64,000 nt of DNA, taken from Roseicitreum antarcticum. Lineage in GTDB: Bacteria; Pseudomonadota; Alphaproteobacteria; Rhodobacterales; Rhodobacteraceae. The notes beneath the pieces are model-generated. The model did not search any database. It had not been told where the DNA came from and was given only the letters and a program-made list of their open reading frames with translations. The stretch is taken from positions 361,209-425,208 of the forward strand of contig NZ_CP061502.1 of NCBI RefSeq assembly GCF_014681765.1. The letters run 5' to 3'. Below are positions 6,097-33,105 of this stretch, one piece after another. The position numbers and the translations under genes are program-made. Position 1 is the stretch's first letter, and every line of letters begins with the position of its first letter.

Positions 6097-6140
6097 TGGT
6101 CTTTTCCACTTTGCTGGAGAATTTCGCCAGAGAATAGCAA

Positions 6141-7743: not shown

Positions 7744-7753
7744 GCCGACTTCA

Positions 7754-7789: not shown

Positions 7790-7839
7790 GTTTTATGCCC
7801 CCATGCGCCGATCAGAAACATCATCTAAGGGATCACGAT

Positions 7840-8325: not shown

Positions 8326-8361
8326 CAGAAACTCACCCTATACCACAAGGTCAGAAGTCAA

Positions 8362-9704: not shown

Positions 9705-10619
9705 GTGACCATCCGGTTTGCCGTTTGCGGAACTGCCTTCTGGGCTGAGCAGGTTCACTTGCCGGGCCTGATGGCCCACAGCGATCTGACGGTTGCAGGC
9801 GTTTGGGGCAGGACCCCTGAACGTACGAGGGCGCTGGCCGATCCCTTGGGGATCACCGCCTTTGACAGCTTCGACTCGATGCTTGACGCCGTCGACGCAG
9901 TGTCCTTTGCCGTGCCACCGTCAGTCCAGGCCGAACTTGCGCCCATCGCCATCGCGCGCGGAAAGCATGTGATACTGGAAAAGCCGCTGGGCCCAACCAT
10001 CGATGGCGCACTGACGATTCTGCGCGGTTTGGCGGAAAACAAGGTGGCGGGCCTGTGCTTCCTGACCCGCATGTTTGTCGACGAGATGGATGCCTTCGTT
10101 TCCGAAGCCCGCGCGATCAATCCGCGCGAAGGCTTTGCGACATTCCGGTCTGGCGCGTTGCTGGACGGGCCTTACGCAGGTTCGGCATGGCGACAGGAAG
10201 AGCATGGCGCATTGTGGGATGCGGCGCCGCATGGGTTATCCGTCCTTGTTTCAGTGTTGGGGCCCATTGCGGAAATCGCCGCGTCGCTCGGGGACGACGG
10301 GACCTATGAATTTACCTGCCGTCACGTCAATGGCGGGCAGTCCAGCTTTGGCCTGAACCTGCGGGACGCATCGGTGAAGCTGGCCGAAAGCTATCGTTTC
10401 CAGAATGGAAAGACGGTTGAGCTGCCAAGTCTGCCGTACAATCGGAAAGAGACCTTCAGGAAAGCGGCAGATGTGCTTTTGCAGGAGATCTCGGGCAGAT
10501 CTGACGGGAAAAGTGCGCAGCTTGATCTGGCGTTGCATCTGGTCTGTGTCGCCACGGCGGCGCAGCAAAGCCTTTCATCTGCGGACGCCTTCGTTCGGGT
10601 TCAGACACCCAAACCCTAG
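9705..10619 (+). CDS. Gfo/Idh/MocA-family NAD(P)-dependent oxidoreductase
   Basis: A 304-residue protein starting with GTG, seven bases after AAAGGA. An N-terminal Rossmann domain begins FAVCGTAFWAEQVHLPGL, and the family EKP motif is present as ILEKPLGPT with the lysine expected to take part in catalysis. Members oxidise sugars, inositols or sugar acids, or reduce the keto forms. It follows the TRAP operon by 56 bp and precedes the MmgE/PrpD gene, so all are probably co-transcribed. The substrate is unknown. Confidence 0.85.
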   Translation: MTIRFAVCGTAFWAEQVHLPGLMAHSDLTVAGVWGRTPERTRALADPLGITAFDSFDSMLDAVDAVSFAVPPSVQAELAPIAIARGKHVILEKPLGPTIDGALTILRGLAENKVAGLCFLTRMFVDEMDAFVSEARAINPREGFATFRSGALLDGPYAGSAWRQEEHGALWDAAPHGLSVLVSVLGPIAEIAASLGDDGTYEFTCRHVNGGQSSFGLNLRDASVKLAESYRFQNGKTVELPSLPYNRKETFRKAADVLLQEISGRSDGKSAQLDLALHLVCVATAAQQSLSSADAFVRVQTPKP

Positions 10620-10658: not shown

Positions 10659-12032
10659 ATGCCTGAGACGCTGAACCATGGCCGGGCACTCGCCCGGCAC
10701 GCCGCCACTTGGCAAGACCGCGAGATCCCGGCGGATGTCGCGCTCAAGACGCGGCTTCATGTAATCGACACGCTGAGCGCCATTGTATCAGGCGCGACAC
10801 TGGAAGCAGGTCGCGCGGGACAAGCATATGTTGCGGGGCTTGGTGGCAGGGGTTCGGCATCGGTATTGGGAACAGCGTTGCGGGTGCCGCTGATCGAGGC
10901 CGCCCTCGCCAATGGCATGGCAGCGCATGCCGATGAATCTGACGATTCGCACGAGACCAGCCAGACCCATCCCGGTTGCGGCGTTCTGCCCGCAGCACTA
11001 AGCGTCGCGGAAGAGGTCGGTGCCTCGGGCGAGGCATTCTTGCGCGCAGTCAACCTGGGATACGAGATGACCATTCGCTTTGGTGAAGCCATGGCGCCCG
11101 CCATGAGCTTTGCCCGGTCTTCGCTGTCTTGTCACGCCTGGGGGCCGTTATTTGGCGCGGGCTTTGCTGCCGGGAACTTGATGAAGTTTGACGAAGACCA
11201 GTATCTGGTGCTGCTGAACTATCTGGTGCAGGAGGCGTCCGGCCTGACGACATGGCGGCTGGACCGCGCGCACACGCTGAAAAGTTACGTGTTCGCAGGG
11301 ATGCCCGCAAGCAATGCCGTCAAGGTGGCGGCACTGGTCCGGGCAGGTTTCACCGGCGCAGGCGATGTCCTGAGCCCTGCAGACCGGAATTTTTTCGACG
11401 CAATGCCCGCGGATATGCAACCCGCTGCCCTGTATCGGGGGTTGGGACGTGACTTTCGCATCCTAGAGACCGACATCAAGAAATACAGCGTAGGCTTTCC
11501 CATTGCTGCCCCGATTTCAGCGCTGGAAGACATTCTGGCGCGAGCCAACCCGCAGCCTGACGCGATCACAGCGGTGCGCATCCGCTATGCGCAGGATTGG
11601 TACAAGGTGATTGGCGATGAAAATGGCATGCCGGACCTGAACCTGCGCTACTGTTTGGCCGTCACGATCCTGGACAATGGCTTGTCATTCGCCGCGTCAC
11701 ATGACGAGTCCCGGATGAAAGCCCCGGACGTCAAGAGCCTCGGCCAGAAAATCACCTTCCTGCCGCCTGATGCGGATCAGGACCGTTTCGAAGCGCGTGT
11801 GGAGGTCGACACGCCAGCGGGGACCCTAACGGCACGGCAGGGATTGCATGTGCTGGGTCGCAAAGACAATCCAATGAGCGCCTTGCAAATCGAAGCTAAA
11901 GCCCTTGAGTTATTTGAGATGGCGCTGTCACCCGCCCAGGCCCGTGTTCTTGTCACGCGCTGTCATGAGCTGCCCGATGCCCCAAATATCCACCAGCTTA
12001 TCGCCGCAACGATCCCAGACAGCGCCCGGTAA
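10659..12032 (+). CDS. MmgE/PrpD family protein
   Basis: A 457-residue protein of the MmgE/PrpD superfamily, which includes 2-methylcitrate dehydratase PrpD and cis-aconitate decarboxylase. Family-typical stretches include the early hydrophobic helix (DTLSAIVSGATLEAG), ANGMAAHADESDDSHETSQTHPG, written here as spaced blocks (ANGMAAHADESDD, then HETSQTHPG), and a central ALVRAGFTGAG segment. Starts at ATG after GGAGG. Members usually act on tricarboxylates or related hydroxy/unsaturated acids. It converges on the LacI gene with only five bases between stops. Confidence 0.85.
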   Translation: MPETLNHGRALARHAATWQDREIPADVALKTRLHVIDTLSAIVSGATLEAGRAGQAYVAGLGGRGSASVLGTALRVPLIEAALANGMAAHADESDDSHETSQTHPGCGVLPAALSVAEEVGASGEAFLRAVNLGYEMTIRFGEAMAPAMSFARSSLSCHAWGPLFGAGFAAGNLMKFDEDQYLVLLNYLVQEASGLTTWRLDRAHTLKSYVFAGMPASNAVKVAALVRAGFTGAGDVLSPADRNFFDAMPADMQPAALYRGLGRDFRILETDIKKYSVGFPIAAPISALEDILARANPQPDAITAVRIRYAQDWYKVIGDENGMPDLNLRYCLAVTILDNGLSFAASHDESRMKAPDVKSLGQKITFLPPDADQDRFEARVEVDTPAGTLTARQGLHVLGRKDNPMSALQIEAKALELFEMALSPAQARVLVTRCHELPDAPNIHQLIAATIPDSAR

Positions 12033-12037: not shown

Positions 12038-13102
12038 CTATACCTTGGGCGCGGCGGTGGACTTGCGGATGATAAGTTGCGCATCCAGCCGGATTGGCAA
12101 GGCCGCTTCGCCACCGTCGAGGGCAGAAATGACATAATCCGCGATTGTCTTGCCCATCCTTGCCGCCGGAACGTGGACGGTAGTCAGGGGCGGGTCGATA
12201 TGAGATGCCAGTTCGTTGTCGTCAAAGCCTGAAACACTGATATCGTCGGGGACGCAGAGTCCGCGTGCGCGTGCCTCTATCAGTGCGCCGGACGCAAGGT
12301 AGTCATTGGTGCAGACCACGGCAGTGGGGCGCGCGTCCTGTTCAAGGATCGCACGCATTCCCTCACGGCCGCAAGCAATGGTCCATTGCGGCACCACACG
12401 AAAATGCTGTGGCCGCACGGCTATGCCTTCGCGGGCCAAGGTGTCGCGGATCGCATTGATCCGCAGCCGGATACGATCATTGTGATCGAAATTGGCGGCG
12501 ATGACCCCGAAGGATTGATGGCCCAGATCCAAGAGGTACTTCACCATCTTGGACATCTCGTCGTAATTGTCGATGCCGATACAGTTGGTGCGCTCACCCG
12601 CGCCCGTGGTATAAGCGATGACATGGAAGATGCTCCGCTGCTCCAGCATCTCGAACAATTCGGGGGGGTGATCTTCGCCCATCAGAACCAGGCACTCCAC
12701 ACCGTTCTGGATCATCTTGGAGACTTGCACGATCGTGCGATCGCGCGACGCATCTGGACGGCCCAGCAACAAGGTATATCCGGCATCCCCCAGCGATTTT
12801 TGCAGGCTTTCCAGCATGGTGGCGATCGTCTGGTGTCCAAGTGTCGGGATCAGCGCACCAACGGTCCGCGTCCGCAGGCTGGCCAACGCCTGTGCCGCAC
12901 CGTGCGGAATCCAGCCCAGCTCTGCAATGGCTTTTTCTACGCGCGCGCGCGTCTTTTCAGTGACGGCATTGGGCGAATTGATCACGCGTGATGCTGTCGC
13001 CGTGGATACTTCGGCAAGGCGCGCAACGTCTTCCAATTTCACGGATGATTGAAACGCGCGCCGCGAACGCGGCCTTTTGGGGGCGGGCGATTCGTTGGTC
13101 AA
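12038..13102 (-). CDS. LacI-family transcriptional regulator
   Basis: A 354-residue repressor-type protein. The HTH lies at residues 22-45 (LEDVARLAEVSTATASRVIN, with an extra ~20 basic residues before it), followed by the LacI hinge region and a periplasmic-binding-like effector domain. The start appears to be TTG at 13102, seven bases after GGAGA. LacI proteins bind 14-20 bp palindromes centred on CG, and several such sites (TGTAAGCGCTTACA type) occur at 6.1, 6.6, 13.9, 14.0, 25.3 and 25.5 kb. It is therefore the most probable local regulator of the whole island, responding to a pathway sugar acid (inference). Confidence 0.92.
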   Translation of the reverse strand: MTNESPAPKRPRSRRAFQSSVKLEDVARLAEVSTATASRVINSPNAVTEKTRARVEKAIAELGWIPHGAAQALASLRTRTVGALIPTLGHQTIATMLESLQKSLGDAGYTLLLGRPDASRDRTIVQVSKMIQNGVECLVLMGEDHPPELFEMLEQRSIFHVIAYTTGAGERTNCIGIDNYDEMSKMVKYLLDLGHQSFGVIAANFDHNDRIRLRINAIRDTLAREGIAVRPQHFRVVPQWTIACGREGMRAILEQDARPTAVVCTNDYLASGALIEARARGLCVPDDISVSGFDDNELASHIDPPLTTVHVPAARMGKTIADYVISALDGGEAALPIRLDAQLIIRKSTAAPKV

Positions 13103-13189: not shown

Positions 13190-13843
13190 TTATCCGCGAC
13201 CCACGTTGAGGATCTTCAATGCGGCGGCTGCCGCACCAAAGCCATTGTCGATGTTCACCACCAAGACCCCGGGTGCACAAGACGCCAAAGCCGATGAAAG
13301 CGCTGCATGTCCTCCTTCAGACACACCGTACCCGACCGAAGTTGGTACCGCGATCACAGGCGCACGCACAAGCCCAGCCAGCACACTGAAAATGGCACCT
13401 TCCATCCCGGCAACCGCAATGACCACAGGAAACTGCCGGATTTCTTCCAGCCGCTCGGTCAACCGCCAAAGCCCCGCGACACCGATATCGGCGAAGAGCG
13501 TCGCAGATTCGCCAAAGAAGGCCAATGTCCGCAATGCCTGCTGCGCAACCGACATGTCGGAAGTTCCCGCCGCGACCACGGCAACGGCTGGCACGGATGA
13601 CACGATCCGCGGCACGCCGACTTCTGCCGTACCCGACAGAGCATCATAGCGGACCTGTTCTCCAAACCGGCCCAGGGCACGGGCTTTCTCGGGGTCGAGC
13701 CGCGTAATCAGCATGCGCGCTTCTGCCGACAGCACGGTTTCAACGATACTGGCGATCTGCTCTGCCGATTTTCCAGACCCCAGAATCGCCTCGGCCACGC
13801 CCGTTCTTTCCTCACGCGCAAAGTCGAGCTTGTGATCGATCAC
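13190..13843 (-). CDS. larB: LarB, pyridinium-3,5-biscarboxylic acid mononucleotide synthase
   Basis: A 217-residue protein with a PurE/AIR-carboxylase-like C-terminal domain (VAVVAAGTSDMSVAQQA, VIAVAGMEGAIFSVLAGLV, VIAVPTSVGYGVSEGG), diagnostic of LarB. LarB carboxylates nicotinate adenine dinucleotide at C5 and cleaves the phosphoanhydride, the first step of nickel-pincer-nucleotide cofactor synthesis. It starts at GTG 13843 after GAGGG. It is divergent from the IlvD/Edd-larA operon, with two operator-like sites in the shared region. It is somewhat shorter than Lactiplantibacillus LarB. larC and larE lie 7-9 kb downstream on the other strand. Confidence 0.9.
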   Translation of the reverse strand: MIDHKLDFAREERTGVAEAILGSGKSAEQIASIVETVLSAEARMLITRLDPEKARALGRFGEQVRYDALSGTAEVGVPRIVSSVPAVAVVAAGTSDMSVAQQALRTLAFFGESATLFADIGVAGLWRLTERLEEIRQFPVVIAVAGMEGAIFSVLAGLVRAPVIAVPTSVGYGVSEGGHAALSSALASCAPGVLVVNIDNGFGAAAAALKILNVGRG

Positions 13844-13895
13844 TACACCGTCCCTCTTTTTACGGCCTGTCTTTCAACAATCCGATCATGTCATT

Positions 13896-13909
13896 CTTCA
13901 TCGCTTACA
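13896..13909 (-). promoter_or_regulatory. Putative LacI-family operator (larB side)
   Basis: On the minus strand this reads TGTAAGCGATGAAG: a full left half-site with a degenerate right half. It lies 53 bp upstream of the larB start and 63 bp from the next site, in the divergent larB / dehydratase promoter region. Two spaced sites would permit DNA looping. Confidence 0.5.
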
Positions 13910-13971
13910 CTAAGAAATTATAGGTGATCTGCGATGGACATTTTCTAAAGCATATCATAACGTCTCCCCAT

Positions 13972-13985
13972 TGTAAGCGCTTACT
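13972..13985 (+). promoter_or_regulatory. Putative LacI-family operator (IlvD/Edd-larA operon)
   Basis: TGTAAGCGCTTACT, a near-perfect 14-bp palindrome 28 bp upstream of the dehydratase start. It defines the consensus for the other sites in the island. Confidence 0.75.
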
Positions 13986-14013
13986 TTTTGGCGCCGCAGA
14001 ACAGGAAACGATC

Positions 14014-15732
14014 ATGAGCGAAAAAACCACAGGTATGCGCAAAGGGCTCGCCGGGTATGGCGACGCGGGCTTTTCCCTGTTTTTGCGCAAGGCTTTCATC
14101 AAGGCCATGGGCTATTCCGACGATGCGTTGGATCGTCCGATCATCGGCATTACCAACACGTTTTCCGGCTACAATGCCTGTCACCGTAACGTGCCTGACA
14201 TGATCGAAGCGATCAAGCGCGGCGTGATGCTGGCTGGCGGCCTGCCGATCGAGTTTCCGGTCATCTCGATGCACGAGGCGTTTTCACATCCCACCAGCAT
14301 GTACCTGCGCAATCTAATGGCCATGGATGTTGAAGAAATGGTCCGCGCACAGCCGATGGACGCCGTGGTGCTCATCGGCGGTTGCGACAAGACGGTGCCC
14401 GCGCTGTTGATGGGCGCCGCCAGCGCCAAAGTCCCCGCGATCCTTACCGTAACCGGCCCGATGATCACCGGCAGCCACAAAGGCGAACGACTCGGCGCTT
14501 GCACGGATTGTCGGCGGCTTTGGGGGCAGCATCGTGCAGGCAACATTGACGAGGCTGAAATCGAAGAAATCAGCGGCAAGCTGGCGCCAGGTCCCGGCAC
14601 ATGCATGGTGATGGGTACGGCCAGCACCATGGCGTTGGTTTCAGAAGCAATGGGCATGATGTTGCCCGGCGGCGCGGCGATTCCGGCCGTTCACGCCGAC
14701 CGCATGCGCCACGCTGAGGCAACCGGCGCACGCGCGGTGTCGCTTGCGGCTGACAGAATCCTGCCCGAACAGATCATGACGCCCGCGTCTTTGCGCAACG
14801 CCATGCGGGTTTTGCAGGCTGTCGGCGGATCTACCAACGCGGTGGTGCACCTGGCGGCAATCGCAGGTCGGCTGGGGTTCGATCTGAACCTTGAAGAACT
14901 GGACGCGCTGGGGGCGGAGACCCCGGTTCTGGTTGATCTGAAGCCGTCAGGTCAGCATTACATGGAAGATTTGTTTCGGGCGGGTGGACTGGTCACGGTA
15001 TTGCGCGAGATCGACACAATGATTGACCGAGACTGTCTGACGGTGACAGGCCGCACCTTGGGTCAAGAGATCGACGCACAGCCGCAATCCTGGCCACAGG
15101 ACGCCGTGCGAACCGTTGCAGATCCTATCCATTCCGGCGGTGGCATCCGACTACTGCGCGGGAACCTTGCCCCGCAGGGGGCCATCATCAAGCAAGCGGC
15201 CGCCACGCCTGAACTGTTGCGTCACACGGGGCGGGCAGTCGTGTTTTCCTCCCTTGCTGACATGGCAGAGCGTCTGGACGACCCCGCGCTGGATGTGCGT
15301 GCCGATGATGTGCTGGTGCTTCAGAACGCAGGACCCAAGGGCGCACCCGGCATGCCGGAGGCTGGATATATCCCGATTCCCAAAAAGTTGGCCGCGGCGG
15401 GGGTCAAGGACATGGTCCGTATCTCGGATGCCAGAATGAGCGGCACCGCGTTCGGCGCAATCGTGCTACATGTTTCACCAGAAGCGGCAGTCGGCGGGCC
15501 ACTGGGTCTGGTCCGGGACGGCGACGTGATAGCACTGGATGTCGAAGCTGGGACGCTTTCGTTACAGGTAGATGATGCGGAATTGCAGGCCCGTCGTGCG
15601 CAATGGTCGGCACCGGATCATGTCAATGTCAGCCGGGGCTATGCGAAGCTGTATTTCGACGAGGTTCTACAAGCGGAAGACGGCTGTGATTTCAACTTCC
15701 TGCGCGCAAATCCGCGCAACCTTGGGCAGTAA
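14014..15732 (+). CDS. IlvD/Edd-family dehydratase (sugar-acid dehydratase type)
   Basis: A 572-residue Fe-S dehydratase. Cluster ligands are visible as Cys56 (NACHRNV), Cys124 (GGCDKT) and Cys197 (GTCMVMGTAST), with Lys126 as the carbamylated Mg-binding lysine. The spacing matches L-arabinonate dehydratase (C59/C127/C200) with a constant offset. It has the GACTDCRRLW region of the pentonate/hexonate dehydratases rather than that of amino-acid IlvD. The ATG at 14014 follows AGGAAACG; an upstream in-frame ATG would run through the operator. It converts an aldonate to a 2-keto-3-deoxy acid. larA follows 11 bp later. Confidence 0.88.
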   Translation: MSEKTTGMRKGLAGYGDAGFSLFLRKAFIKAMGYSDDALDRPIIGITNTFSGYNACHRNVPDMIEAIKRGVMLAGGLPIEFPVISMHEAFSHPTSMYLRNLMAMDVEEMVRAQPMDAVVLIGGCDKTVPALLMGAASAKVPAILTVTGPMITGSHKGERLGACTDCRRLWGQHRAGNIDEAEIEEISGKLAPGPGTCMVMGTASTMALVSEAMGMMLPGGAAIPAVHADRMRHAEATGARAVSLAADRILPEQIMTPASLRNAMRVLQAVGGSTNAVVHLAAIAGRLGFDLNLEELDALGAETPVLVDLKPSGQHYMEDLFRAGGLVTVLREIDTMIDRDCLTVTGRTLGQEIDAQPQSWPQDAVRTVADPIHSGGGIRLLRGNLAPQGAIIKQAAATPELLRHTGRAVVFSSLADMAERLDDPALDVRADDVLVLQNAGPKGAPGMPEAGYIPIPKKLAAAGVKDMVRISDARMSGTAFGAIVLHVSPEAAVGGPLGLVRDGDVIALDVEAGTLSLQVDDAELQARRAQWSAPDHVNVSRGYAKLYFDEVLQAEDGCDFNFLRANPRNLGQ

Positions 15733-15743
15733 GGGGCCGCCGC

Positions 15744-17066
15744 ATGACTTCCCCAACGTTTCCCGCACTTCACTTCCCGCTGCTAGATTCGGTTGTCCTG
15801 CCGCAGGTTGCGCGGGTCAACCTGAAGCACAAGGCGGGTACCCCCGTCGCCGATGTGCCGGGGGCTGTACGGGATGCCATCAAGTTGTCCGCGCGCCTTG
15901 CTGCACTACGCCCAGGCAGCAGCGTGGCGATTGCCCTCGGCTCTCGTGGGATCTCGCAGATCGTGACCGTCGCGCGGGCAGCCATCGACACTGTCAGAGA
16001 CATGGGGCATCTGCCCTTCGTGGTACCCGCAATGGGCAGCCACGGGGGTGGTACCGCAGATGGGCAGGTTGGCGTACTGGCGAAACTTGGCCTGACCGAA
16101 GAAGCCCTTGGTGTTGAGATCCGATCCTCCATGGAGGTCGTCGATTATGGCGAGACGGACGTGGGCGCGCGCTGCAAATTCGACAAACATGCCGCCCACG
16201 CCGACGCCGTAATCGTTGTAAACCGAGTGAAGTCGCATACGACCTTCGACCGCCCGATTGAAAGCGGTCTCGTCAAGATGACCGCTGTGGGATTGGGCAA
16301 GGCCGACGGGGCACGGTCGGTGCACCGGACCGGGCCTGTTGCGCTCAGCGACACCTTGCCCGCGCTGGCGCGGATTGCGCTGGCCCGCTCGCCCATTGCT
16401 CTGGGCATCGCGCTGGTGGAAGATTCTGACAAAGCGCTGGTCGCGATAGAAGGCGTTGCACCGGAAGACTTCTTCGCCTCGGACGAACGATTGTTGAAAC
16501 TGGCCAAGACATTTATTGCGCGGCTGCCGTTTTCGCATATTGATGCCCTCGCCGTGGAGCAGATCGGCAAGGATATTTCTGGCGCGGGCATGGATCACGC
16601 GGTCACCGGACGCGCGGATTTACGGTCCATCCCCAACCCACCGCCCTTTGTGGCACGAATCGCAGTCCTGGGGCTTTCCAAGGCGACAGGGGGCAATGGG
16701 CTGGGTGTCGGCCTGGCAGACTTCACCACCGTGTCAGTAGCATCGTCGATCGATCTACGGCAGATCTACATGAACTCGCTGACTTCCACCTTGGTGGAAA
16801 AATCGCGTTTTCCTATAGTTCTGGCGAACGATCTTGACGTGATGCGCGCCCTTGTCTCGACCTCCTGGTCGGCTGACAATGCAAGTACGGGCCTTTGCAT
16901 CGTCGCATCCACGCTGCATCTGAACCAAGTGCTTTTGTCCGGGCCGTTGCTGGAACAGATCCGGCAGAGCGAAATCTATGTCTCCGAAGGACCGCTACAA
17001 GATTTGCGTTTCGACGCCGACGGAAAGCTACTGACGCGCGCCTATGAGCGCGATGAAATATCCTGA
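15744..17066 (+). CDS. larA: LarA-family nickel-pincer-nucleotide-dependent racemase/epimerase
   Basis: A 440-residue LarA homologue (DUF2088 plus C-terminal domain). The active-site pattern fits the family: a Gly-Ser-His turn (His100 in MGSHGGGT), His165 (KSHTTF), Lys178 (SGLVKMTAVGLGK; the lysine that holds the NPN cofactor) and His194, exactly 16 residues after that lysine as in lactate racemase. LarA enzymes move a hydride at the alpha carbon of 2-hydroxy acids. Its place between an aldonate-type dehydratase and a sugar oxidoreductase argues for a sugar-acid C2 epimerase or other hydroxyacid racemase rather than lactate. larB, larC and larE are all in the same island. Confidence 0.87.
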   Translation: MTSPTFPALHFPLLDSVVLPQVARVNLKHKAGTPVADVPGAVRDAIKLSARLAALRPGSSVAIALGSRGISQIVTVARAAIDTVRDMGHLPFVVPAMGSHGGGTADGQVGVLAKLGLTEEALGVEIRSSMEVVDYGETDVGARCKFDKHAAHADAVIVVNRVKSHTTFDRPIESGLVKMTAVGLGKADGARSVHRTGPVALSDTLPALARIALARSPIALGIALVEDSDKALVAIEGVAPEDFFASDERLLKLAKTFIARLPFSHIDALAVEQIGKDISGAGMDHAVTGRADLRSIPNPPPFVARIAVLGLSKATGGNGLGVGLADFTTVSVASSIDLRQIYMNSLTSTLVEKSRFPIVLANDLDVMRALVSTSWSADNASTGLCIVASTLHLNQVLLSGPLLEQIRQSEIYVSEGPLQDLRFDADGKLLTRAYERDEIS

Positions 17067-18195
17067 CGAGATGGCGAACACGATGAATACGAAAAACAAA
17101 AACCATGATGCCACGCGTCCGCTGCGGGTTGGAATCGTAGGTTGCGGCTGGGTCGCAGGCAGCCAGATCGAGCGGGGGTTTTCCCAGCTGCGAGACCGCT
17201 TTACCGTCGCTGCTTGCTGCGACGCTGATCACGCGCGCGCCGAAGATTTCGCATTGCGCCACGGCATCGAGGTTGTGAGCGAGGATTTCGCGGCACTTCT
17301 TGCCGAAGATCTGGACGTCATAAGCATCTGCACCCCGCCGTCGCTGCATCACTCCATGGTTCTGGGCGCGCTTGCCGCAGGTAAGCATGTGATCTGTGAG
17401 AAGCCGTTCACAAGTTCGCTGCGGCTGATGGATCAGGTTATCGCAGCCGAGGCCGCATCGGATCGGCGCATCATGCCAATTTTTCAGTACCGCTTCGATG
17501 ATGGTATCGCGAAGGTACGGTCGCTGATTGCATCCGGTTTATGCGGCAAGGCCTATCTGTCGTCGGTAGAAACCGCATGGCTACGTGGTGCCGACTATTA
17601 TGACGTACCGTGGCGGGGGAAGTTTGCGACTGAATTGGGCGGCGTGCTGCTGACACAGTCGATCCATATCCACGACCTTTTCTTATGGTTGATGGGACCG
17701 GCGGCGCAGATCAATGGCTTCAAGACAACGCGGGTCAATCCGATCGAAGTCGAAGACTGCGCAGTTGCAAGCGTCCAGATGGCGGATGGGTCGCTTGCTA
17801 CGTTGTCGGCAACACTTGGGTCGGCGCTGCCGGTCACGCGCATCCGGCTTTGCTTTGAAAATCTGGTGATCGAGCGGCAGTGCTTCGGCACCGAGGCGAA
17901 GAACCCGGGCGCCGAGCCTTGGACGATCACCGCGCGCACCCCCGACCTTCAGGCGCACGCAGAACGCATCATGTCTGAAGCACACCTAGGCCCACGTGAT
18001 TTCGCGGGGCAGTTTGCCGATTTTGCTACTGCGCTTGCAGAAGATCGTGCTTTTGCCGTCACGCTTCAGGATGCACGGCGGTCGCTTGAATTGATCAGCG
18101 CCGTGTTCCACGCCGCTGAGACTGGGCAGACCGTCCAGCTTCCGATCACTGCCGACCATGTTCGATACGATGGATGGGCCCCCAGTCATGAATGA
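17044..18195 (+). CDS. Gfo/Idh/MocA-family oxidoreductase
   Basis: A protein of up to 383 residues. Its Rossmann fold begins RVGIVGCGWVAGSQIERG, and the family motif CEKPFTSS carries the conserved lysine. The C-terminal half contains the alpha/beta substrate domain with TELGGVLLTQSIHIHDLFLW, where paired histidines are typical. The start is uncertain: ATG 17044 overlaps larA by 23 bases, while ATGs at 17071 and 17083 are possible and give a shorter tail before the Rossmann domain. It probably oxidises or reduces a hydroxyl of the same substrate handled by the dehydratase and LarA. Confidence 0.85.
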   Translation: MSAMKYPDEMANTMNTKNKNHDATRPLRVGIVGCGWVAGSQIERGFSQLRDRFTVAACCDADHARAEDFALRHGIEVVSEDFAALLAEDLDVISICTPPSLHHSMVLGALAAGKHVICEKPFTSSLRLMDQVIAAEAASDRRIMPIFQYRFDDGIAKVRSLIASGLCGKAYLSSVETAWLRGADYYDVPWRGKFATELGGVLLTQSIHIHDLFLWLMGPAAQINGFKTTRVNPIEVEDCAVASVQMADGSLATLSATLGSALPVTRIRLCFENLVIERQCFGTEAKNPGAEPWTITARTPDLQAHAERIMSEAHLGPRDFAGQFADFATALAEDRAFAVTLQDARRSLELISAVFHAAETGQTVQLPITADHVRYDGWAPSHE

Positions 18196-19933
18196 TGAAA
18201 AGCACGCGAACGATACCTCCCGGTACGATTTCATCATCGTCGGTGGCGGCACCGCAGGGTGCGTGCTTGCCAGCCGCCTCAGCGCCGACCCGCGGTTGCG
18301 TATTCTGGTAATCGAAGCTGGCGAGGATACCGCACCGGGCCGGGTGCCCGCGCCTATCCTCGACAGCTTTGCCGGACTGGCTTATCTCAACTCGCGTTTT
18401 CTGTGGAACGACCTGAAAGCGACAACCGAGAACATTCCGAGCAATCGCCCCGACTACCAGCCTGCGCTGCGAAAATATGAACAGGCACGGGTGCTTGGTG
18501 GCGGGTCAGCCATCAACGGCCAACTGGCCAACCGCGGCGCACCGCATGACTACGACGAATGGCAGGCGCGCGGGGCCAAGGGCTGGTCCTGGGACGCGGT
18601 ACTCCCCTATTTCCGCAAGCTGGAACGCGATGTAGACTTTGACGGTCCGCTGCACGGGCAGGACGGCCCCATCGCGATTTCCCGAATCGGCGAAGATCTT
18701 TGGCCGGAACATGCCAATGCCATGGCCGCGGCTTTCGGGCGCGCTGGGTTTTCATATGTACACGATCAGAACGGCGAATTTGTCGATGGCTATTACCCGG
18801 TCGCGATCTCCAACCTGTACGACCGCCGCGTCTCAACTGCGGTTGGATACCTTGGCTACCGCGTGCGTGCCCGTGCGAATCTGACGATCCTGACCGAAAC
18901 CCACGTGACCGGGTTGCTCATGCACGATCGTGTCTGCAGAGGAGTAACCGCGCGCGGGCCGGATGGCGAAACCCGCGACTACCAGGCGTCCGAAGTCATC
19001 CTGTCCTGCGGCGCGCTGCATTCGCCCGCGCATCTGTTGCGCGCGGGAATAGGGCCCGCGCAGGAGCTTGGCGACCTCGGCATCGAGGTTGTCGCAGACC
19101 GACCGGGGGTCGGCAAACGTCTGACCGATCATCCTTCCGTCGCAATTGCCAGCTACATCAAGCCAAAGGCGCGGATTAACGGGCGAACCCGGCGGCATCT
19201 GCTTTTGGGGCTGCGCTTTTCATCAGGGCACGCCGATGCGCCGCCCTCGGACATGGCGGCATCCATTGCGTCCAAATCTGCTTGGCACGATGTAGGAAGC
19301 CAGCTTGCCACCGTGAATATCTGGGTCAACAAGACGTTTTCCGAGGACGGGTCGGTACGGTTGCGCGATAGTGACTGGCGCACTGAACCACGGATCGACT
19401 TTAACCTTATGTCAGACCGGCGCGATCTGGAGCGGATGATGTCGGCATATCGTCGGCTCGCCGCAATTGTCCTCAGCCCAGAGATGCACGGCGTTGTCAG
19501 CGACACCTTCCCCGCCAGCTACAGCGACAAGGTGCGGCAGGTGGGGGCACTGACACTTCGCAACCGGCTGATGACGGGCTTGCTGGCAAAGCTCTTGGAT
19601 GGCCCCGCCGTCTTGCGGGAGTTCTTGCTCAAATCGTTCATCCTGGAAGGCGACCCCATTGAGGTGCTCATGCGTGACGATGACGCGCTGGAGGCGTTTA
19701 TCCGACGCGCGACTGTTGGGGTCTGGCATGCCTCGTGCTCTTGCCGGATGGGGGATGAAGATGATCCCATGGCGGTGACGGCTGCCGATGGCCGGGTGTA
19801 CGGTGTGGGCGGCCTGCGTGTCGTCGATGCCTCGATCTTCCCCAGCATTCCCAGCGGCAACACCAATCTTCCAACAATCATGGTCGCGGAACGAATCGCT
19901 GACCTGATCCTTGCCGAACGGCAAGCCACCTAA
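18188..19933 (+). CDS. GMC-family FAD-dependent oxidoreductase (choline/glucose dehydrogenase-like)
   Basis: A 581-residue flavoenzyme. The FAD-binding signature YDFIIVGGGTAGCVLASRLS starts near residue 14, the GMC motif QARVLGGGSAING lies near 110, and the C-terminus has WHASCSCRMG and SIPSGNTNLPTIM, where His and Asn normally form the catalytic pair. The first residue of the usual HPxGTC motif region is changed (Ala-Ser for Pro-x), which may shift substrate preference. ATG 18188 overlaps the preceding stop. No signal peptide is seen, so it probably acts in the cytoplasm, oxidising an alcohol to the aldehyde used by the ALDH downstream. Confidence 0.88.
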   Translation: MNDEKHANDTSRYDFIIVGGGTAGCVLASRLSADPRLRILVIEAGEDTAPGRVPAPILDSFAGLAYLNSRFLWNDLKATTENIPSNRPDYQPALRKYEQARVLGGGSAINGQLANRGAPHDYDEWQARGAKGWSWDAVLPYFRKLERDVDFDGPLHGQDGPIAISRIGEDLWPEHANAMAAAFGRAGFSYVHDQNGEFVDGYYPVAISNLYDRRVSTAVGYLGYRVRARANLTILTETHVTGLLMHDRVCRGVTARGPDGETRDYQASEVILSCGALHSPAHLLRAGIGPAQELGDLGIEVVADRPGVGKRLTDHPSVAIASYIKPKARINGRTRRHLLLGLRFSSGHADAPPSDMAASIASKSAWHDVGSQLATVNIWVNKTFSEDGSVRLRDSDWRTEPRIDFNLMSDRRDLERMMSAYRRLAAIVLSPEMHGVVSDTFPASYSDKVRQVGALTLRNRLMTGLLAKLLDGPAVLREFLLKSFILEGDPIEVLMRDDDALEAFIRRATVGVWHASCSCRMGDEDDPMAVTAADGRVYGVGGLRVVDASIFPSIPSGNTNLPTIMVAERIADLILAERQAT

Positions 19934-19953
19934 AGGCCCTGAAAGGAGCTTAC

Positions 19954-21447
19954 ATGCAACATTCAACCGGAGCCGGTCGGCTGCAACTTCCCGAAAAACC
20001 CCGCGAATACGCCGCGCTGATCGATGGGCGTTTCATCCCCGCTCGTGATCGGGAATTGATTGGGCGGGACAATCCGGCGCATAACCACCCCGTCAGCCTA
20101 TACCCAAAGGCCACGCCAGAAGACCTGCGCGACGCCCTGTCAGCGGCGCGGCGAACCGTTGATAACCGTGTCTGGTCGGGTATGTCCTCCGCCGATCGCG
20201 CCCGCATCTTGCTCAAGGTCGCAGCGTTGATCGACACTCACCGTGTCGAACTGCGCGAAATCGAATGCCTGGAAGTTGGCAAACCCATCGGCCTCGTCGA
20301 CCGGGAAATCGGCGGGGCGGTTGCGCATTGGGAATATGCGGCAACCATGGCGCGCCACAGCTATGGGGACACTTACGATACATTCGGCAATGACGCCCTG
20401 GGGCTGGTGATGCGCAATCCCGTCGGGGTCGTCAGCATGATCACCCCTTGGAACTATCCCCTGATGATCAACAGCCAGAAGCTGCCATTTGCATTGGCCG
20501 TGGGCTGTTCTGCTGTCGTCAAACCCAGTGAACTGACATCGGGTTCTGCCCTGAGGTTGGGCGAGCTCTTGATGGAGGCGGGCATTCCCGCTGGTGTCGT
20601 CAACATCATCGCGGGCACCGGACTGGACCTTGGTGAAGGCCTGTGCACCGCGCCCGAAGTTGACATGGTGTCCTTCACCGGCTCAACAGCGGTGGGGCGG
20701 AAGATCGCCGCTCAGGCAGGCGAAAAGCTGAAGAAGATATCCTTGGAACTGGGCGGCAAAAGCGCGCAAATCGTCTGCGCGGATGCCGATCTGGAGCTCG
20801 CGGCAGAGAAGGTCGCGCTGGGGGCAACCCGGAACGCCGGACAGGCCTGCGTTGGCGGGACGCGGCTTATCGTCGAACGATCCATCGCCGACAGCTTTTG
20901 CGCTGCGGTTCAGGCGCATGTCGAACGCCTGCGGATCGGTGACCCGCTGGACCCCGAAACCACCATGGGGCCCCTTATCAGCGCGGTGCAAAAGACCCGC
21001 GTCGAAGGCTACATCAAAGAGGGTGAACGAGATGGCGCCAACCGGTGGACGATGGAAACCAGCCACGCGAAGACATTGCCCGGCCATTTCGTTCAGCCCA
21101 CGATCTTTACCGAGGTCCGCAACGACATGAGCATCGCACAGGATGAGATCTTCGGCCCCGTCCTGACGGTCACGACCTTCGACGCGGTTAGCGACGCGAT
21201 CGATATCGCAAACAACAGCCGGTACGGGCTGGCCGCCGGTGTCTGGAGCACCAACATCAACAAAGCGCTGCAAATGGGGCGCAGGCTTGACGCGGGCAGC
21301 ATCGAGGTCAACACTTTCCTTGCCGGGGTGCCAGAACTTCCCATCGTCGGCCACCGGGACAGCGGTGTCGGCAGCGAACGGGGGCGAAATGCGGTTCAGG
21401 AATTCACCGAGTTGAAGACCATTCAGGTACAGTTGTCCCCGGTTTGA
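19954..21447 (+). CDS. NAD(P)-dependent aldehyde dehydrogenase
   Basis: A 497-residue ALDH-superfamily enzyme. Catalytic residues are visible: Asn167 (TPWNYP), Glu265 (LELGGKS) and nucleophile Cys299 (NAGQACVGG), with the FTGSTAVGRK cofactor loop at 241-250. It starts after AAGGAG, 20 bp from the GMC gene. Together the pair would take an alcohol to a carboxylic acid. It resembles betaine/gamma-aminobutyraldehyde and lactaldehyde-type ALDHs, but the substrate is not determined. Confidence 0.92.
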   Translation: MQHSTGAGRLQLPEKPREYAALIDGRFIPARDRELIGRDNPAHNHPVSLYPKATPEDLRDALSAARRTVDNRVWSGMSSADRARILLKVAALIDTHRVELREIECLEVGKPIGLVDREIGGAVAHWEYAATMARHSYGDTYDTFGNDALGLVMRNPVGVVSMITPWNYPLMINSQKLPFALAVGCSAVVKPSELTSGSALRLGELLMEAGIPAGVVNIIAGTGLDLGEGLCTAPEVDMVSFTGSTAVGRKIAAQAGEKLKKISLELGGKSAQIVCADADLELAAEKVALGATRNAGQACVGGTRLIVERSIADSFCAAVQAHVERLRIGDPLDPETTMGPLISAVQKTRVEGYIKEGERDGANRWTMETSHAKTLPGHFVQPTIFTEVRNDMSIAQDEIFGPVLTVTTFDAVSDAIDIANNSRYGLAAGVWSTNINKALQMGRRLDAGSIEVNTFLAGVPELPIVGHRDSGVGSERGRNAVQEFTELKTIQVQLSPV

Positions 21448-21475
21448 CCGCCGGGCAATAACACAGGAGGCATCC

Positions 21476-22702
21476 TTGCACAGCACCACAGGTGACACAG
21501 GCACCCGGTTGATCCACTTGGATGCTGTCGGCGGCGTCGCAGGCGATATGTTTGTCGCGGCGCTGCTGGATGCCTTCCCGGAACTGACAGACCGGGTCAT
21601 GGCCGATGTCGCAGCCGTTCTGCCCGACGGCTGCGGAACCGCCCAGCTGGAACCCGGTTTTTCGGCGGGCATCCGGTGCCTTCGGTTTGGCCTTCGGCCC
21701 AGTGATGCGCCGCACTCGCACGGCCATGCGGACCACCATTCGCACGGTGCCCGGTTCGCCGATCTGCGTCGCCGGATCAGCGGCGCAGGTCTGTCACCGG
21801 GAACCGCAGCACAGGGCGTGTCGATCCTCACCCATCTGGCGGAAGCCGAAGCGCACATCCACGGCGTCGCGCTGGAAGACGTGCATTTCCACGAAGTTGG
21901 CGACTGGGATTCGTTGATGGATGTTGTCGCGGCGGGAAGCATCGCCGCAGCGCTTGCCCCAGCCATCTGGACCGTGTCCGATCTGCCGCTTGGGTCAGGA
22001 CTGGTACGCACGCAACACGGTCTGCTGCCTGTTCCCGCTCCGGCAACAACGGAAATCCTCAAAGGATTCAGTTGGCGCGACGACAAAATCGCAGGCGAGC
22101 GTGTCACACCAACCGGCGCGGCGATCTTGCGCGCATTATGCGACCCAGCCAATGTAAGGCAAGGTCCCGCCAAGCTGACAGGCAACGGGACAGGTGCAGG
22201 CACCCGCACCTTGCCGGGGATGCCCAACATCTTGCGCGCAACGGTTTTTGAACAGGACCTGAACGGCGGGGATGAGGCCGTAGACATCATCACCTTTGAC
22301 ATCGACGACATGACGGGAGAAGAAATAGCGGTCGCGGCAGATCATATCCGTTCTGCGCCCGGCGTGATCGACGTGACATTGCAGACCCTGACCGGCAAGA
22401 AAGGCCGATCGGCCTACGGATTTCAGATTCTGGCCACGCCAGGGTCCCGTGATGTACTGGCGCCGTTGATCTTTCGCGAAACCTCAACACTCGGGCTGCG
22501 TTGGCGCACGGAGACCCGCGTGACACTGCCTCGTGCTGTGGGGGATCGCGCAGGCTTGCGCATCAAAACCGCAACCCGGCCTGACGGCATTCAGACGACC
22601 AAAGCCGAGTCCGACGATCTGGCGTCAATCGCAGGGTTGTCGCACCGCCGCACCGCAGCCCAAGCGGCCGAAGCACCGACACGGGACCACAAGCATGAAT
22701 GA
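21476..22702 (+). CDS. larC: LarC, nickel-pincer cofactor nickel insertase (single uninterrupted ORF)
   Basis: A 408-residue LarC (DUF111 family), which uses CTP to insert nickel into the pyridinium dithiocarboxylate nucleotide. N-terminal LHLDAVGGVAGDMFVAALLDA-like sequence, the His-rich segment at 80-90 (HSHGHADHHSH) and the VHFHEVGDWDSLMDVV motif are diagnostic. The start is TTG at 21476, supported by AGGAGG five bases upstream. Both the LarC1 and LarC2 parts are in one frame, unlike the programmed frameshift of Lactiplantibacillus larC1/larC2. The stop overlaps larE by eight bases. Confidence 0.92.
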   Translation: MHSTTGDTGTRLIHLDAVGGVAGDMFVAALLDAFPELTDRVMADVAAVLPDGCGTAQLEPGFSAGIRCLRFGLRPSDAPHSHGHADHHSHGARFADLRRRISGAGLSPGTAAQGVSILTHLAEAEAHIHGVALEDVHFHEVGDWDSLMDVVAAGSIAAALAPAIWTVSDLPLGSGLVRTQHGLLPVPAPATTEILKGFSWRDDKIAGERVTPTGAAILRALCDPANVRQGPAKLTGNGTGAGTRTLPGMPNILRATVFEQDLNGGDEAVDIITFDIDDMTGEEIAVAADHIRSAPGVIDVTLQTLTGKKGRSAYGFQILATPGSRDVLAPLIFRETSTLGLRWRTETRVTLPRAVGDRAGLRIKTATRPDGIQTTKAESDDLASIAGLSHRRTAAQAAEAPTRDHKHE

Positions 22703-23486
22703 GATCAAAGCCGCCTTGGACCGACTGGAAACCGTCCTTTACCGTCACGCGCCGCTGGCCGTCGCCGTCTCTGGCGGCGTGGACAGCATGACGCTTGCAC
22801 ATGTGGCGGCGCGCAATGTCGATGTCGTGATGGTGCACGCGGTGTCACCCGCCGTGCCCACAGCTGCAACGCGCCGGGTGCGCGCGCATGCGGCGCACGC
22901 GGGCTGGACGCTGCTGGAAACCGACGCTGGAGAGTTCGCCGACGAACAATATCTAAACAACCCAATTAACCGGTGCTATTTCTGCAAGAACAATCTCTAC
23001 GCGCGCATCGCCGGCCTGACAGAGCGCAACATCGCTTCAGGCGCTAATCTAGATGATCTGCAAGACTTTCGCCCGGGCCTGATCGCCGCAGATGAACACC
23101 GCGTCATACACCCGCTGGTCGAGGCTGGGATCGACAAGAAAACACTGCGCGCGATAGCTGCGCACCTTGGGCTGAATGATCTGTCAGATCTGCCCGCGCA
23201 ACCCTGCCTCGCCAGTCGGGTCGAAACTGGAATCGCAATTTCCGCCGATGACATGACCTTCGTCGATGCTATGGAGGTCGCACTTCATAAAATGGCACCG
23301 TACCTCACGACGCTGCGCTGCCGGATCCTGAAGCGCGGCGTGGTGATCGAAATCGACAGCCTGAACGATCCCGCATTGCCTGCGATCCGAACCTACACGG
23401 CAGCGGCCTGCGCGAAGGACGGCAGACACTTTGCAGGTGTCTTGCCCTATCGCCGGGGCGCGGCGTTTGTGCCGCCCCCCGGTTGA
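22695..23486 (+). CDS. larE: LarE, sulfur transferase for nickel-pincer cofactor synthesis
   Basis: A 263-residue PP-loop ATPase. The ATP pyrophosphatase motif SGGVDS is at 26-31. Cysteines lie at 94 and 97 (NRCYFC) and at 171 in the conserved PCLASR motif. LarE adenylates the P2CMN carboxylates and adds sulfur, in some members by giving up the sulfur of its own conserved cysteine. Three cysteines would also be compatible with an Fe-S-carrying LarE, but that is not certain from sequence. The ATG at 22695 lies inside the larC end, so translation is coupled. Confidence 0.9.
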   Translation: MNEIKAALDRLETVLYRHAPLAVAVSGGVDSMTLAHVAARNVDVVMVHAVSPAVPTAATRRVRAHAAHAGWTLLETDAGEFADEQYLNNPINRCYFCKNNLYARIAGLTERNIASGANLDDLQDFRPGLIAADEHRVIHPLVEAGIDKKTLRAIAAHLGLNDLSDLPAQPCLASRVETGIAISADDMTFVDAMEVALHKMAPYLTTLRCRILKRGVVIEIDSLNDPALPAIRTYTAAACAKDGRHFAGVLPYRRGAAFVPPPG

Positions 23487-23494: not shown

Positions 23495-24289
23495 TTACCG
23501 GCCTGTGAACACGGGCGGGCGTTTCTCGGTAAAGGCAGTCATCCCTTCCTGCCGGTCTTCGGTCATGCTGTTGCGCCAGATTGCATCACGCTCAAAGGCG
23601 ATGCCGTTTTCCAGCGTCGCCCCAACGGCGGCACGTACACATGCCTTCGTGTTTCGCACCGCAACAGGCGCCCGCATGGCTACGATTTCCGCAACCGCAA
23701 CGGCACGGGCAACGGTTTGGTCCACTGGGCAGATTTCGACGACAAGGCCCAGCTGATAGGCACGCTCCACACCGATCGGTTCGCCGGTGAATAGCATGAA
23801 GGAAGCCACATTCCCGCCAATCTTGCGCGGCAACCGCTGGGTCCCGCCATCGCCAGCCATCCCACCAATCTTGACTTCAGGCTGACCGAATTGCGCATTT
23901 TCACCGGCGATGATGAAATCACAGACCATTGCGAGTTCGCTGCCCGCGCCGAAGGCGATGCCATTCACTGCCGCGATCAACGGCTTCTGAAACCCCTCGA
24001 TGGCGCGCCAGGCTGCAACACGACGCGGGTTGTTGGACGTGGCCGGAGGGCCGAAGGTTACCATTTCCTTGATGTCCGCGCCTGCGGCAAAGGTGGCGTC
24101 CGTCCCGGTCAGAACAACGCAACGCACGTCGTTGTCCTGTTCCAGTTCTACGATCAGGCGTCCCAGTTCGATCACCATCGAACTGTGGAGCGCATTTTTC
24201 TTCTCGGGCCGGACGATGCGGATCAATGCCACATGCGCCGAAGGGCGCTCTAGGGTGATCTTGTCCGAGTGGTCTTCTTTGGCGTGCAT
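23495..24289 (-). CDS. Enoyl-CoA hydratase/isomerase (crotonase) family protein
   Basis: A 264-residue crotonase-fold protein. The oxyanion-hole region TFAAGADIKEM, the GAGSELAMVCDF segment with the first catalytic Glu and FGQPEVKIGG with the second are all present, so hydratase activity is plausible. The ATG at 24289 is preferred over one 42 bases upstream because GGAAG lies just before it and the conserved domain starts soon after. It is downstream of a DHDPS-like gene in the same leftward operon (42 bp gap) and converges on larE. Substrate unknown; it implies a CoA thioester step. Confidence 0.87.
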   Translation of the reverse strand: MHAKEDHSDKITLERPSAHVALIRIVRPEKKNALHSSMVIELGRLIVELEQDNDVRCVVLTGTDATFAAGADIKEMVTFGPPATSNNPRRVAAWRAIEGFQKPLIAAVNGIAFGAGSELAMVCDFIIAGENAQFGQPEVKIGGMAGDGGTQRLPRKIGGNVASFMLFTGEPIGVERAYQLGLVVEICPVDQTVARAVAVAEIVAMRAPVAVRNTKACVRAAVGATLENGIAFERDAIWRNSMTEDRQEGMTAFTEKRPPVFTGR

Positions 24290-24331
24290 GGTACTTCCAG
24301 ATTTAAGGTACTGATTTAAATGGACGAACAA

Positions 24332-25267
24332 TCAACCCTGCGGCAGGTACTTCGCTTCGCTCAACCCGTGTCGGTCGAACAAGGCGTCAATCTTGCGGCG
24401 GTCGTTGTCCGAGATGCGGGTTTGCGGGGCGCGCGTTACATCGGTCGGAATGATACCCTGCTTCATCAAGACATATTTCATGCGTGGCCGGTAGTCCCGC
24501 AACGGGTTCGACCAGCACACACGCGCGATGGGACCGATCTCGTTCCATATCGTATAGGCTTCGGTTGCCTGGCCTGCTGCTGCGAAACGCTGCATCTTCA
24601 CAATCTCGGCGGTGAACGCCCCAGCCAACCCGATAAGAGCGCCTTCGCACCCCATCAACAAGGCCTCCAGAACAAAGGTGTCGTTCCCGGTCAGCACAGC
24701 CACACGCCCATCAGTTTCACGCGCTTCTTCAAGAATTTCCCAGGTCCTGTCGATGTCGAACGCTGCGTCCTTGATCGCTACAACGCGGTCCAGTTCTGCC
24801 AGTGCCCGTATCGTTCCGACGGGATAACCCGCGTTTGCCGTCTGGAAAGCAATAATCGGGACATCGACAGCATCGACCACTGCGGCGTGATAATCAGTGA
24901 CCACCGATACGGGAAGCGGCTTCGACATAAAGGTGGGTAGCGGCGGAAAGACCACCAGACCCTCTGCGCCCGCGTCAACCAAGCGGCGCGCATGGTCGAC
25001 CGCGCCCGCAGTATGTCCCGCAATCAGCCCCGAAACCATCGGAACGGCGCTCGCAAGGACAGCTTTGGTGCGGGTCAACGCTTCAATTTGCTCTGCGTGA
25101 TCCAGCGCCGTCGCCTCGGCGGCGGCCATGTTCATAGCAAGCGCACTGATTCCTCCAGACGCCATTTGCCCCACGTAACGTTCCATCGTCGGCCAGTCGA
25201 CGGCGGCGTTTTCGGTGAATGGCATGATCGGTGCCGGAATGATCCCGGACTTAAGTGGATGTGTCAT
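24332..25267 (-). CDS. Dihydrodipicolinate synthase (DapA/NanA) superfamily lyase
   Basis: A 311-residue class I aldolase/hydratase-type barrel. The Schiff-base lysine is Lys166 (VVAIKDAAF). The tyrosine usually found about 30 residues before it (YNVP/YDIP) is missing, replaced by IIAFQTANAG, which is unusual and suggests altered chemistry or substrate. Such enzymes cleave or dehydrate 2-keto-3-deoxy sugar acids. It starts after GGAGAG; a LacI-type operator lies 72 bp upstream. It is divergent from the CoA-transferase operon. Confidence 0.85.
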   Translation of the reverse strand: MTHPLKSGIIPAPIMPFTENAAVDWPTMERYVGQMASGGISALAMNMAAAEATALDHAEQIEALTRTKAVLASAVPMVSGLIAGHTAGAVDHARRLVDAGAEGLVVFPPLPTFMSKPLPVSVVTDYHAAVVDAVDVPIIAFQTANAGYPVGTIRALAELDRVVAIKDAAFDIDRTWEILEEARETDGRVAVLTGNDTFVLEALLMGCEGALIGLAGAFTAEIVKMQRFAAAGQATEAYTIWNEIGPIARVCWSNPLRDYRPRMKYVLMKQGIIPTDVTRAPQTRISDNDRRKIDALFDRHGLSEAKYLPQG

Positions 25268-25525: not shown

Positions 25526-25568
25526 AATACGTTTTTTGAACCAGAGCAAGAGGTGCAGGAGAATCGTG

Positions 25569-32175: not shown

Positions 32176-32206
32176 TTCAAGCCGCCCGTACACCCCCGAG
32201 GTAAAC

Positions 32207-33100: not shown

Positions 33101-33105
33101 ACCCG

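Follow-up and report, generated by a model that had tools for sequence, protein, structure and literature searches.

A gene cluster that joins a LarA homologue, and the genes for its nickel-pincer nucleotide (NPN) cofactor, to an IlvD/Edd dehydratase was analysed in a 64,000-nucleotide stretch of Roseicitreum antarcticum DNA (contig NZ_CP061502.1, positions 361,209 to 425,208). This whole stretch is called the window, and all coordinates refer to it. The genome is 4.25 Mb long and 99.75% complete. Profile searches of the window proteins found all four lar genes (larB, larA, larC, and larE), which lie in the following run:

12038..13102, minus strand: LacI-family regulator (PF00356/PF13377)
13190..13843, minus strand: LarB, NPN cofactor synthesis (NF033503)
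14014..15732, plus strand: IlvD/Edd dehydratase, sugar-acid type by its SGTA motif, without the C-terminal His (Pfam; NF004784)
15744..17066, plus strand: LarA homologue of 440 aa, NPN-dependent isomerase group 22 (NF052515; predicted fold; residue map)
17044..18195, plus strand: Gfo/Idh/MocA oxidoreductase (PF01408, PF22725)
18188..19933, plus strand: GMC oxidoreductase (PF00732/PF05199)
19954..21447, plus strand: aldehyde dehydrogenase (PF00171)
21476..22702, plus strand: LarC, with LarC1 and LarC2 in a single frame, nickel insertion (TIGR00299 and NF052512, above cut-off)
22695..23486, plus strand: LarE sulfur transferase with CxxC-C motif (TIGR00268)

The larB gene is read on the minus strand, and ilvD/edd, larA, gfo/idh, gmc, aldh, larC, and larE follow in the opposite direction. 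From ilvD to larE, neighbouring genes overlap or sit at most 28 bp apart. The ilvD stop codon ends at 15732 and the larA ATG is at 15744, leaving the 11 bp spacer that a first-pass annotation of this DNA had given; its overlap between larA and the Gfo/Idh gene also held and measures 23 bp with the ATG at 17044. Likely starts, judged from the sequence, are ATG 14014 for IlvD, ATG 22695 for LarE, and TTG 21476 behind AGGAGG for LarC.

The claim of a complete lar set was borne out, and the curated NCBIfam cut-offs were passed. LarB scored 251.5 against 175 bits, LarC1 169.4 against 90 bits, LarC2 89.0 against 50 bits, and LarE 232.3 against 150 bits. LarE carries the CxxC-C motif of the [4Fe-4S]-type enzyme (PMC9283937), as CYFC plus the Cys of PCLASR. 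The whole genome gave a single LarA match by either model and a single LarB above cut-off. LarA is predicted to bind NPN, for which larB, larC, and larE are present.

LarA passed the model of NPN isomerase group 22 (NF052515) with 443.7 against 400 bits and stayed below the Pfam Lar_N cut-off (19.5 against 23.3). At E 1e-3 it had no match to the lactate racemase (NF033504) or malate racemase models, nor to the hexonate-epimerase model NF052594. A lactate or malate racemase, as well as the D-gluconate 2-epimerase GntE, was rejected on profile scores; tight grouping with characterised lactate or malate racemases, which the first-pass annotation had named as evidence against its proposal, did not show in these scores. 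In a profile-profile alignment with hhalign, H100, H165, K178, and H194 aligned with the classical LarA catalytic residues, and by motif numbering they correspond to His108, His174, Lys184, and His200 of the Lactobacillus plantarum enzyme. The active-site pattern noted earlier was therefore correct, and all four residues were invariant in 96 of the 96 aligned group-22 sequences. The alignment with classical LarA ended at residue 271 of 440. The classical D-x-T-R motif reads G-S-R-G in the window LarA, and S67, R68, and G69 were likewise invariant (96/96). In GntE (LarA homologue (LarAH) groups LarAH19, LarAH20, and LarAH15), E and V usually follow the second His (PMC11770544); the window LarA has T166 at the first position and an alignment gap at the second. 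Of the full GntE pattern (E, V, A, and H at the F175, F176, W358, and T359 positions), the last two positions lie outside the alignment.

The predicted model of the window LarA showed the LarA fold. Solved structures searched by sequence with LarA or its alignment returned no LarA, so a fold comparison was needed; the matches of that search, two TALE proteins and one acetyltransferase, were dismissed as chance. Some group-22 proteins carry a DUF362 label in databases. Ten DUF362 sequences form the outgroup in PMC11770544.

The window IlvD scored 842 bits against a cut-off of 539 (subfamily NF004784) and 695 bits against the L-arabinonate dehydratase cut-off of 882 (NF009559). Its closest solved chains were 8ej0 and L-arabinonate dehydratase, and its motifs are SGTA, MGTASTM, and ACTD. 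Sugar-acid dehydratases (SADHT) are described as having SGTA, Thr at 224, Gly at 261, and a C-terminal His (PMC9314677). By its sequence, the window IlvD appears to have the same Thr and Gly; it was called SADHT-like rather than SADHT because the C-terminal His is missing. According to the same source, sugar-acid dehydratases take only C2 (R), C3 (S) acids, and the Paralcaligenes dehydratase uses D-xylonate but not D-lyxonate, D-ribonate, or D-arabinonate. Hexonates are dehydrated provided that the C2 and C3 configurations are retained (PMC5770437). Since this type of dehydratase is strict at C2 and C3, a C2-inverting enzyme beside it has an evident use.

On balance, the window LarA is probably an NPN-dependent C2-epimerase that would convert a (2S,3S) aldonate into its (2R,3S) epimer, the sole form that the neighbouring IlvD/Edd is predicted to accept. 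LarB, LarC, and LarE would make NPN for the sole LarA found in the genome. By analogy with lactate racemase, NPN held on Lys178, with its nickel held by His194, would take a hydride from C2 while His100 and His165 alternate as base and acid. Return of the hydride onto the other face would invert C2. IlvD/Edd would then yield a 2-keto-3-deoxy acid, which a DHDPS-family enzyme and the aldehyde dehydrogenase may process further, and the Gfo/Idh and GMC oxidoreductases may make or trim the sugar acid. A single LacI regulator would likely turn the island on as a unit. The direct evidence comprises the sequence, the order of the genes, the predicted fold, and the palindromes. The first-pass annotation had proposed C2 epimerisation of an aldonate or aldarate before dehydration; this was partly supported, and epimerisation before IlvD/Edd remains the best reading as a prediction.

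The nine genes lacI-larB-ilvD-larA-gfo-gmc-aldh-larC-larE occurred in the same order at three other loci, L108, L110, and L111, where LarA was 66%, 73%, and 82% identical to that of the window; in L110, larE was cut by the contig end. Neighbours of larA thus do co-occur in related genomes, the point on whose failure the first-pass annotation would have given up its proposal. The enoyl-CoA hydratase, DHDPS-family, and CoA-transferase genes were common to the window, L108, and L111. L111 also shared the TRAP transporter and the first Gfo/Idh gene with the window, and PrpD and ABC genes were common to the window and L110. The window grouped on a 96-row tree with L111, L110, and L108 (99% SH-aLRT) and then with L002 (90%).

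Group 22 was present in 10 of 394 family genomes and 11 of 385 class genomes, the window's own being counted in both, and the cluster was held by four genomes of these scans, again including its own. Within the order of the window genome, IlvD at E <= 1e-250 was found in 3 of 292 genomes, namely its own and two at 67% identity. No close LarA copy was found among the 397 genomes of the order of the Afifella metagenome-assembled genome, which we take to be Rhizobiales; LarA at E <= 1e-100 occurred in two of them, one being the Afifella genome itself, at 46 and 50% identity. Across all candidates, group 22 and near kin made up at least 7159 of the 7998 scored at E <= 1e-3, a count that possibly includes other groups. 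A group-22 match above cut-off was also present in the genetically tractable archaeon Haloferax volcanii, and relatives occur on haloarchaeal plasmids.

The association of larA with IlvD/Edd was counted at 100 group-22 loci, made up of the best 80 of 582 confirmed stretches and 20 places from whole genomes, the window not being counted. Neighbours were counted by tblastn with distances taken between midpoints; the larA stretches of L005 and L116 are identical, and 33 of the 100 loci lack 5 kb on one side. IlvD/Edd lay within 5 kb of larA at 21 loci and within 2.2 kb at 18. The density was 52 per Mb at 0.65-2.5 kb from larA (18 matches in 343 kb) and dropped over the following three bins to 7.3, 5.3, and finally 0 per Mb, with 0 at 7.5-10 kb. 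None of 13 classical larA loci, drawn from three genomes and in two cases only about 4 kb long, had IlvD/Edd. Alignment A3 took 11 of these 13 places; L129 and L133 were dropped, another gene having been picked there. Nine of the 21 positive loci matched the window IlvD best (32-90% identical). The other 12 matched instead a divergent IlvD/Edd-family protein, 734-739 aa long in the two looked at. Its best NCBIfam score in the one tested (L059) was 195 bits, below every cut-off; its YjhG-like label is therefore no assignment.

The IlvD/Edd trait, scored at 5.6 kb in 23 rows, required at least six gains or losses on the 96-row tree, from which L017, L023, L028, L033, and L070 were left out, as from the alignment, for a stop in the extended reading. 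The tree was a quick one, and its starred branches force only four changes for the window-like IlvD and one for the divergent type. The trait rows are not independent because 11 of the 23 fall in a single clade, which by record title is Bacillales-type except for L068 (titled Pseudomonas). The divergent IlvD/Edd comes after larA in this clade, mostly accompanied by genes for IclR, an FAA-hydrolase-family protein, and an aldehyde dehydrogenase.

Any of six sugar-acid query proteins was found within 5 kb at 46 of the 100 loci, and at 38 of the 67 with both flanks complete. The counts for divergent IlvD/Edd, PdxA, FGGY, FAA hydrolase, and altronate dehydratase are descriptive because these queries were picked from the same neighbourhoods; the window IlvD query was not. 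Cut-off calls on neighbours in kin were made on one representative each. In L060, the ketoglutaric semialdehyde dehydrogenase was above cut-off (858 vs 770), and the enolase-family gene was a galactonate dehydratase by cut-off (678 vs 311). Paenibacillaceae loci have a kinase and a 6-phosphogluconate dehydrogenase family gene after larA, and the L017 kinase was a gluconokinase by cut-off (678 vs 649). These loci possibly form a gluconate/mannonate branch outside GntE. PdxA lay near larA at 8 of the 100 loci, and the threonate-kinase-like gene of L018 scored 330, below its 450 cut-off. Such PdxA-larA loci may be a tetronate C2-epimerase branch.

Some further arrangements were noted. The genes larA, FGGY kinase, SDR, and 6-phosphogluconate dehydrogenase family stand in a row in Paenibacillaceae L017, L029, L031, L033, L044, L045, and L061, and larA comes directly after PdxA in L009, L010, L013, L018, L019, L039, and L065. 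A match was present in 113 plasmid records, and three of them were examined. The Sulfitobacter sp. D7 plasmid has altronate dehydratase and larC beside larA, with an annotated L-arabinonate dehydratase about 5.6 kb off, and the Sporomusa termitida plasmid record has UxaA-family genes and an enolase-family gene near larA. No sugar-acid neighbour of larA was seen in the Halocatena plasmid record.

The space between larB and ilvD is 170 bp long and holds a LacI-type palindrome. Three operators were predicted in the window (no strand assigned):

13972..13985: predicted LacI operator TGTAAGCGCTTACT, in the larB/ilvD space
6609..6622: predicted LacI operator TGTAAGCGATTACA, in the space that separates the enolase-family gene from the TRAP operon; also in L111
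25339..25352: weaker predicted LacI operator TGTAAGCCTTTACA, two mismatches, between the DHDPS-family and CoA-transferase genes

L111 also has the TGTAAGCGCTTACT palindrome and L110 has it with two mismatches, whereas it was not found in the larB/ilvD space of L108. That space is several hundred bases longer in L108 than in the other three and, by eye, could hold another regulator gene. The TGTAAGCCTTTACA site recurred in L111 and, better formed, as TGTAAGGGCTTACA in L108. At up to two mismatches, 0.55 strand matches to the 13-base core were expected in the window and eight were seen; one of the eight, at 55878, falls outside the island. At up to one mismatch, the core occurred genome-wide at two palindromic places, both in the island (larB/ilvD and enolase-family gene/TRAP). 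The two sites are notable by location rather than number because the genome-wide control, the pattern read backwards, gave five matches. Sites with three mismatches carry no weight and are common: the other 97 loci yielded 69 of them over 1.61 Mb. One such imperfect palindrome, TGATAGCGCTTTCA, lies at 25512-25525, just before the CoA-transferase gene, and is identical at L111 18893; it could reflect chance or a second, weak operator. On this pattern of sites, the genes for uptake and cofactor synthesis read as one predicted regulon with those for epimerisation, dehydration, and the later steps.

Several results weigh against C2 epimerisation. In the LarA protein, the Asp of D-x-T-R is absent, counterparts of Gln295 and Lys298 could not be mapped, model confidence is low over residues 277-293, and Foldseek TM-scores against LarA entries were just 0.42-0.51. 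In the neighbourhoods, 79 of the 100 loci were without IlvD/Edd within 5 kb, 54 matched none of the six sugar-acid queries over that distance, and the 12 divergent IlvD/Edd proteins are of a different type, about 735 aa long. The window IlvD ends in NLGQ, without the C-terminal His of known sugar-acid dehydratases, which its orthologues in L108, L110, and L111 also lack, and the window aldehyde dehydrogenase is under the ketoglutaric semialdehyde dehydrogenase cut-off (357 vs 770; NF042993). A search of the open literature found no assay of a group-22 protein, and Desguin et al. caution that the activity of a LarAH cannot always be predicted from its gene context (PMC7583248). The missing C-terminal His, the low-scoring aldehyde dehydrogenase, and the GMC and Gfo/Idh genes suggest a substrate other than a plain pentonate.

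Some of these points fit an alternative that is rather unlikely, in which LarA epimerises an aldarate, or an acid whose far end is charged or branched, and feeds IlvD or the enolase-superfamily enzyme. The C-terminal His absent from IlvD is the residue that contacts C5/C6 hydroxyls in published docking (PMC9314677). The enolase-family protein was nearest talarate/galactarate dehydratase, though below that cut-off, and relatives of altronate/galactarate dehydratase lay within 5 kb of larA at 10 of the 100 loci. Aldonates are indicated instead by gluconokinase, PdxA with the threonate-kinase-like gene, and galactonate dehydratase in kin.

Another role for LarA could lie downstream: aldol cleavage and aldehyde oxidation would leave a small 2-hydroxy acid (such as lactate or glycerate), and its racemisation would let a single dehydrogenase use it. 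Lactate and glycerate are reported as substrates of classical LarAs (PMC11770544), and the cluster has both an aldehyde dehydrogenase and a DHDPS-family gene. This role is unlikely: the protein lacked a match to the racemase models, its kin have larA next to gluconokinase and sugar-acid dehydratases, and no lactate dehydrogenase or permease was present among the 16 window proteins scanned.

It is very unlikely that group 22 performs another hydride chemistry with NPN, such as a C2-to-C3 shift or oxidoreduction. The changed D-x-T-R motif with its invariant S67-R68-G69 and the early end of the classical alignment would fit such chemistry, but the two general bases required for inversion, H100 and H165, are invariant throughout. 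That LarA and IlvD serve separate pathways merely sharing an island, as the loci without IlvD/Edd could imply, is extremely improbable given the 11 bp spacing, the cluster kept in four genomes, the shared predicted operator, the repeated association on the tree, and the absence of IlvD/Edd from the classical loci.

The Weimberg and L-arabinonate pathways use IlvD/Edd, then a DHDPS- or FAH-family dehydratase, and then ketoglutaric semialdehyde dehydrogenase. The window resembles them in having IlvD/Edd, a DHDPS-family gene, and an aldehyde dehydrogenase, and L060 does so with its divergent IlvD/Edd, its FAA-hydrolase-family gene, and its high-scoring semialdehyde dehydrogenase. The window differs in its low-scoring aldehyde dehydrogenase, the added epimerase, and the GMC and Gfo/Idh genes. 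A standard Weimberg or L-arabinonate pathway was rejected for the window, the aldehyde dehydrogenase and IlvD being under curated cut-offs. Compared with lactate racemase LarA and the malate racemases Mar1 and Mar2, the window LarA has the same fold by model, the same catalytic residues, and the same cofactor genes; it falls outside these families by score, has D-x-T-R replaced, and stands among sugar-acid genes. It is a member of NF052515, whose family name gives no substrate; a substrate class is proposed here.

Nickel epimerases of D-gluconate and D-mannonate are already published (PMC7583248, PMC11770544), and single-histidine LarAHs near carbohydrate genes have also been described (PMC12611868). 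Therefore, the chemistry is known, the LarA branch is uncharacterised, and the predicted use is new. The earlier description of an undescribed pathway stood only in part: NPN-dependent D-gluconate 2-epimerases are on record (PMC7583248) and the group has an NCBIfam name, but no substrate is named for it. No paper in the open literature searched joined nickel-pincer nucleotide, epimerase, and dehydratase.

As a tentative generalisation, group-22 LarAs overall may be nickel C2-epimerases for C4-C6 aldonates, stereochemical adaptors that widen the range of C2-locked dehydratases and kinases. They would then be a common, overlooked nickel-pincer step in tetronate, pentonate, and hexonate catabolism of bacteria and haloarchaea, here giving a (2S,3S) acid access to an undescribed pathway under LacI control. 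This proposes a job for a large group of predicted nickel enzymes, no substrate having been found for group 22, and the link to a C2-strict dehydratase offers a simple chemical rationale for having the nickel enzyme, along with a short list of candidate substrates. If true, it would explain the use by cells of 2S sugar acids (D-lyxonate, L-ribonate, D-mannonate, and D-talonate) and would offer enzyme cascades that start from sugars a C2 epimerase working without added reductant.

The island also contains the following genes:

4963..6171, minus strand: enolase superfamily (mandelate-racemase type), sugar-acid dehydratase-like (best NF047820, 242 bits against a cut-off of 500)
6757..9648, plus strand: TRAP transporter DctP, DctQ, and DctM (profile matches; 78-87% identical in L111)
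9705..10619, plus strand: second Gfo/Idh oxidoreductase (PF01408; 68% identical in L111)
10659..12032, plus strand: MmgE/PrpD-family protein (PF03972; 61% identical in L110)
23495..24331, minus strand: enoyl-CoA hydratase family (PF00378; also in L108 and L111)
24332..25267, minus strand: DHDPS-family aldolase or dehydratase (PF00701; also in L108 and L111)
25536..27131, plus strand: CoA-transferase family (PF01144; also in L108 and L111)

Relatives of the TRAP binding protein in PDB indicated no single ligand. The best solved relatives of the GMC oxidoreductase were 4udp and 6f97 (416 and 415 bits), the latter named as a 5-(hydroxymethyl)furfural oxidase. The sugar-acid island seems to extend over 31099-37739. 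This part holds a second enolase-superfamily gene (31099-32175), 70% identical to the enolase-family gene of L110, and two DHDPS-like genes; a gene close to the L108 cluster shares 75% identity with that at 35173. By eye, this part also has 2-hydroxyacid dehydrogenase, IclR regulator, and dihydroxyacetone-kinase-like genes. Upstream of the island, the genes at 491-3616 resemble, by eye, a thiamine-precursor ABC transporter cluster with a TenA-like gene.

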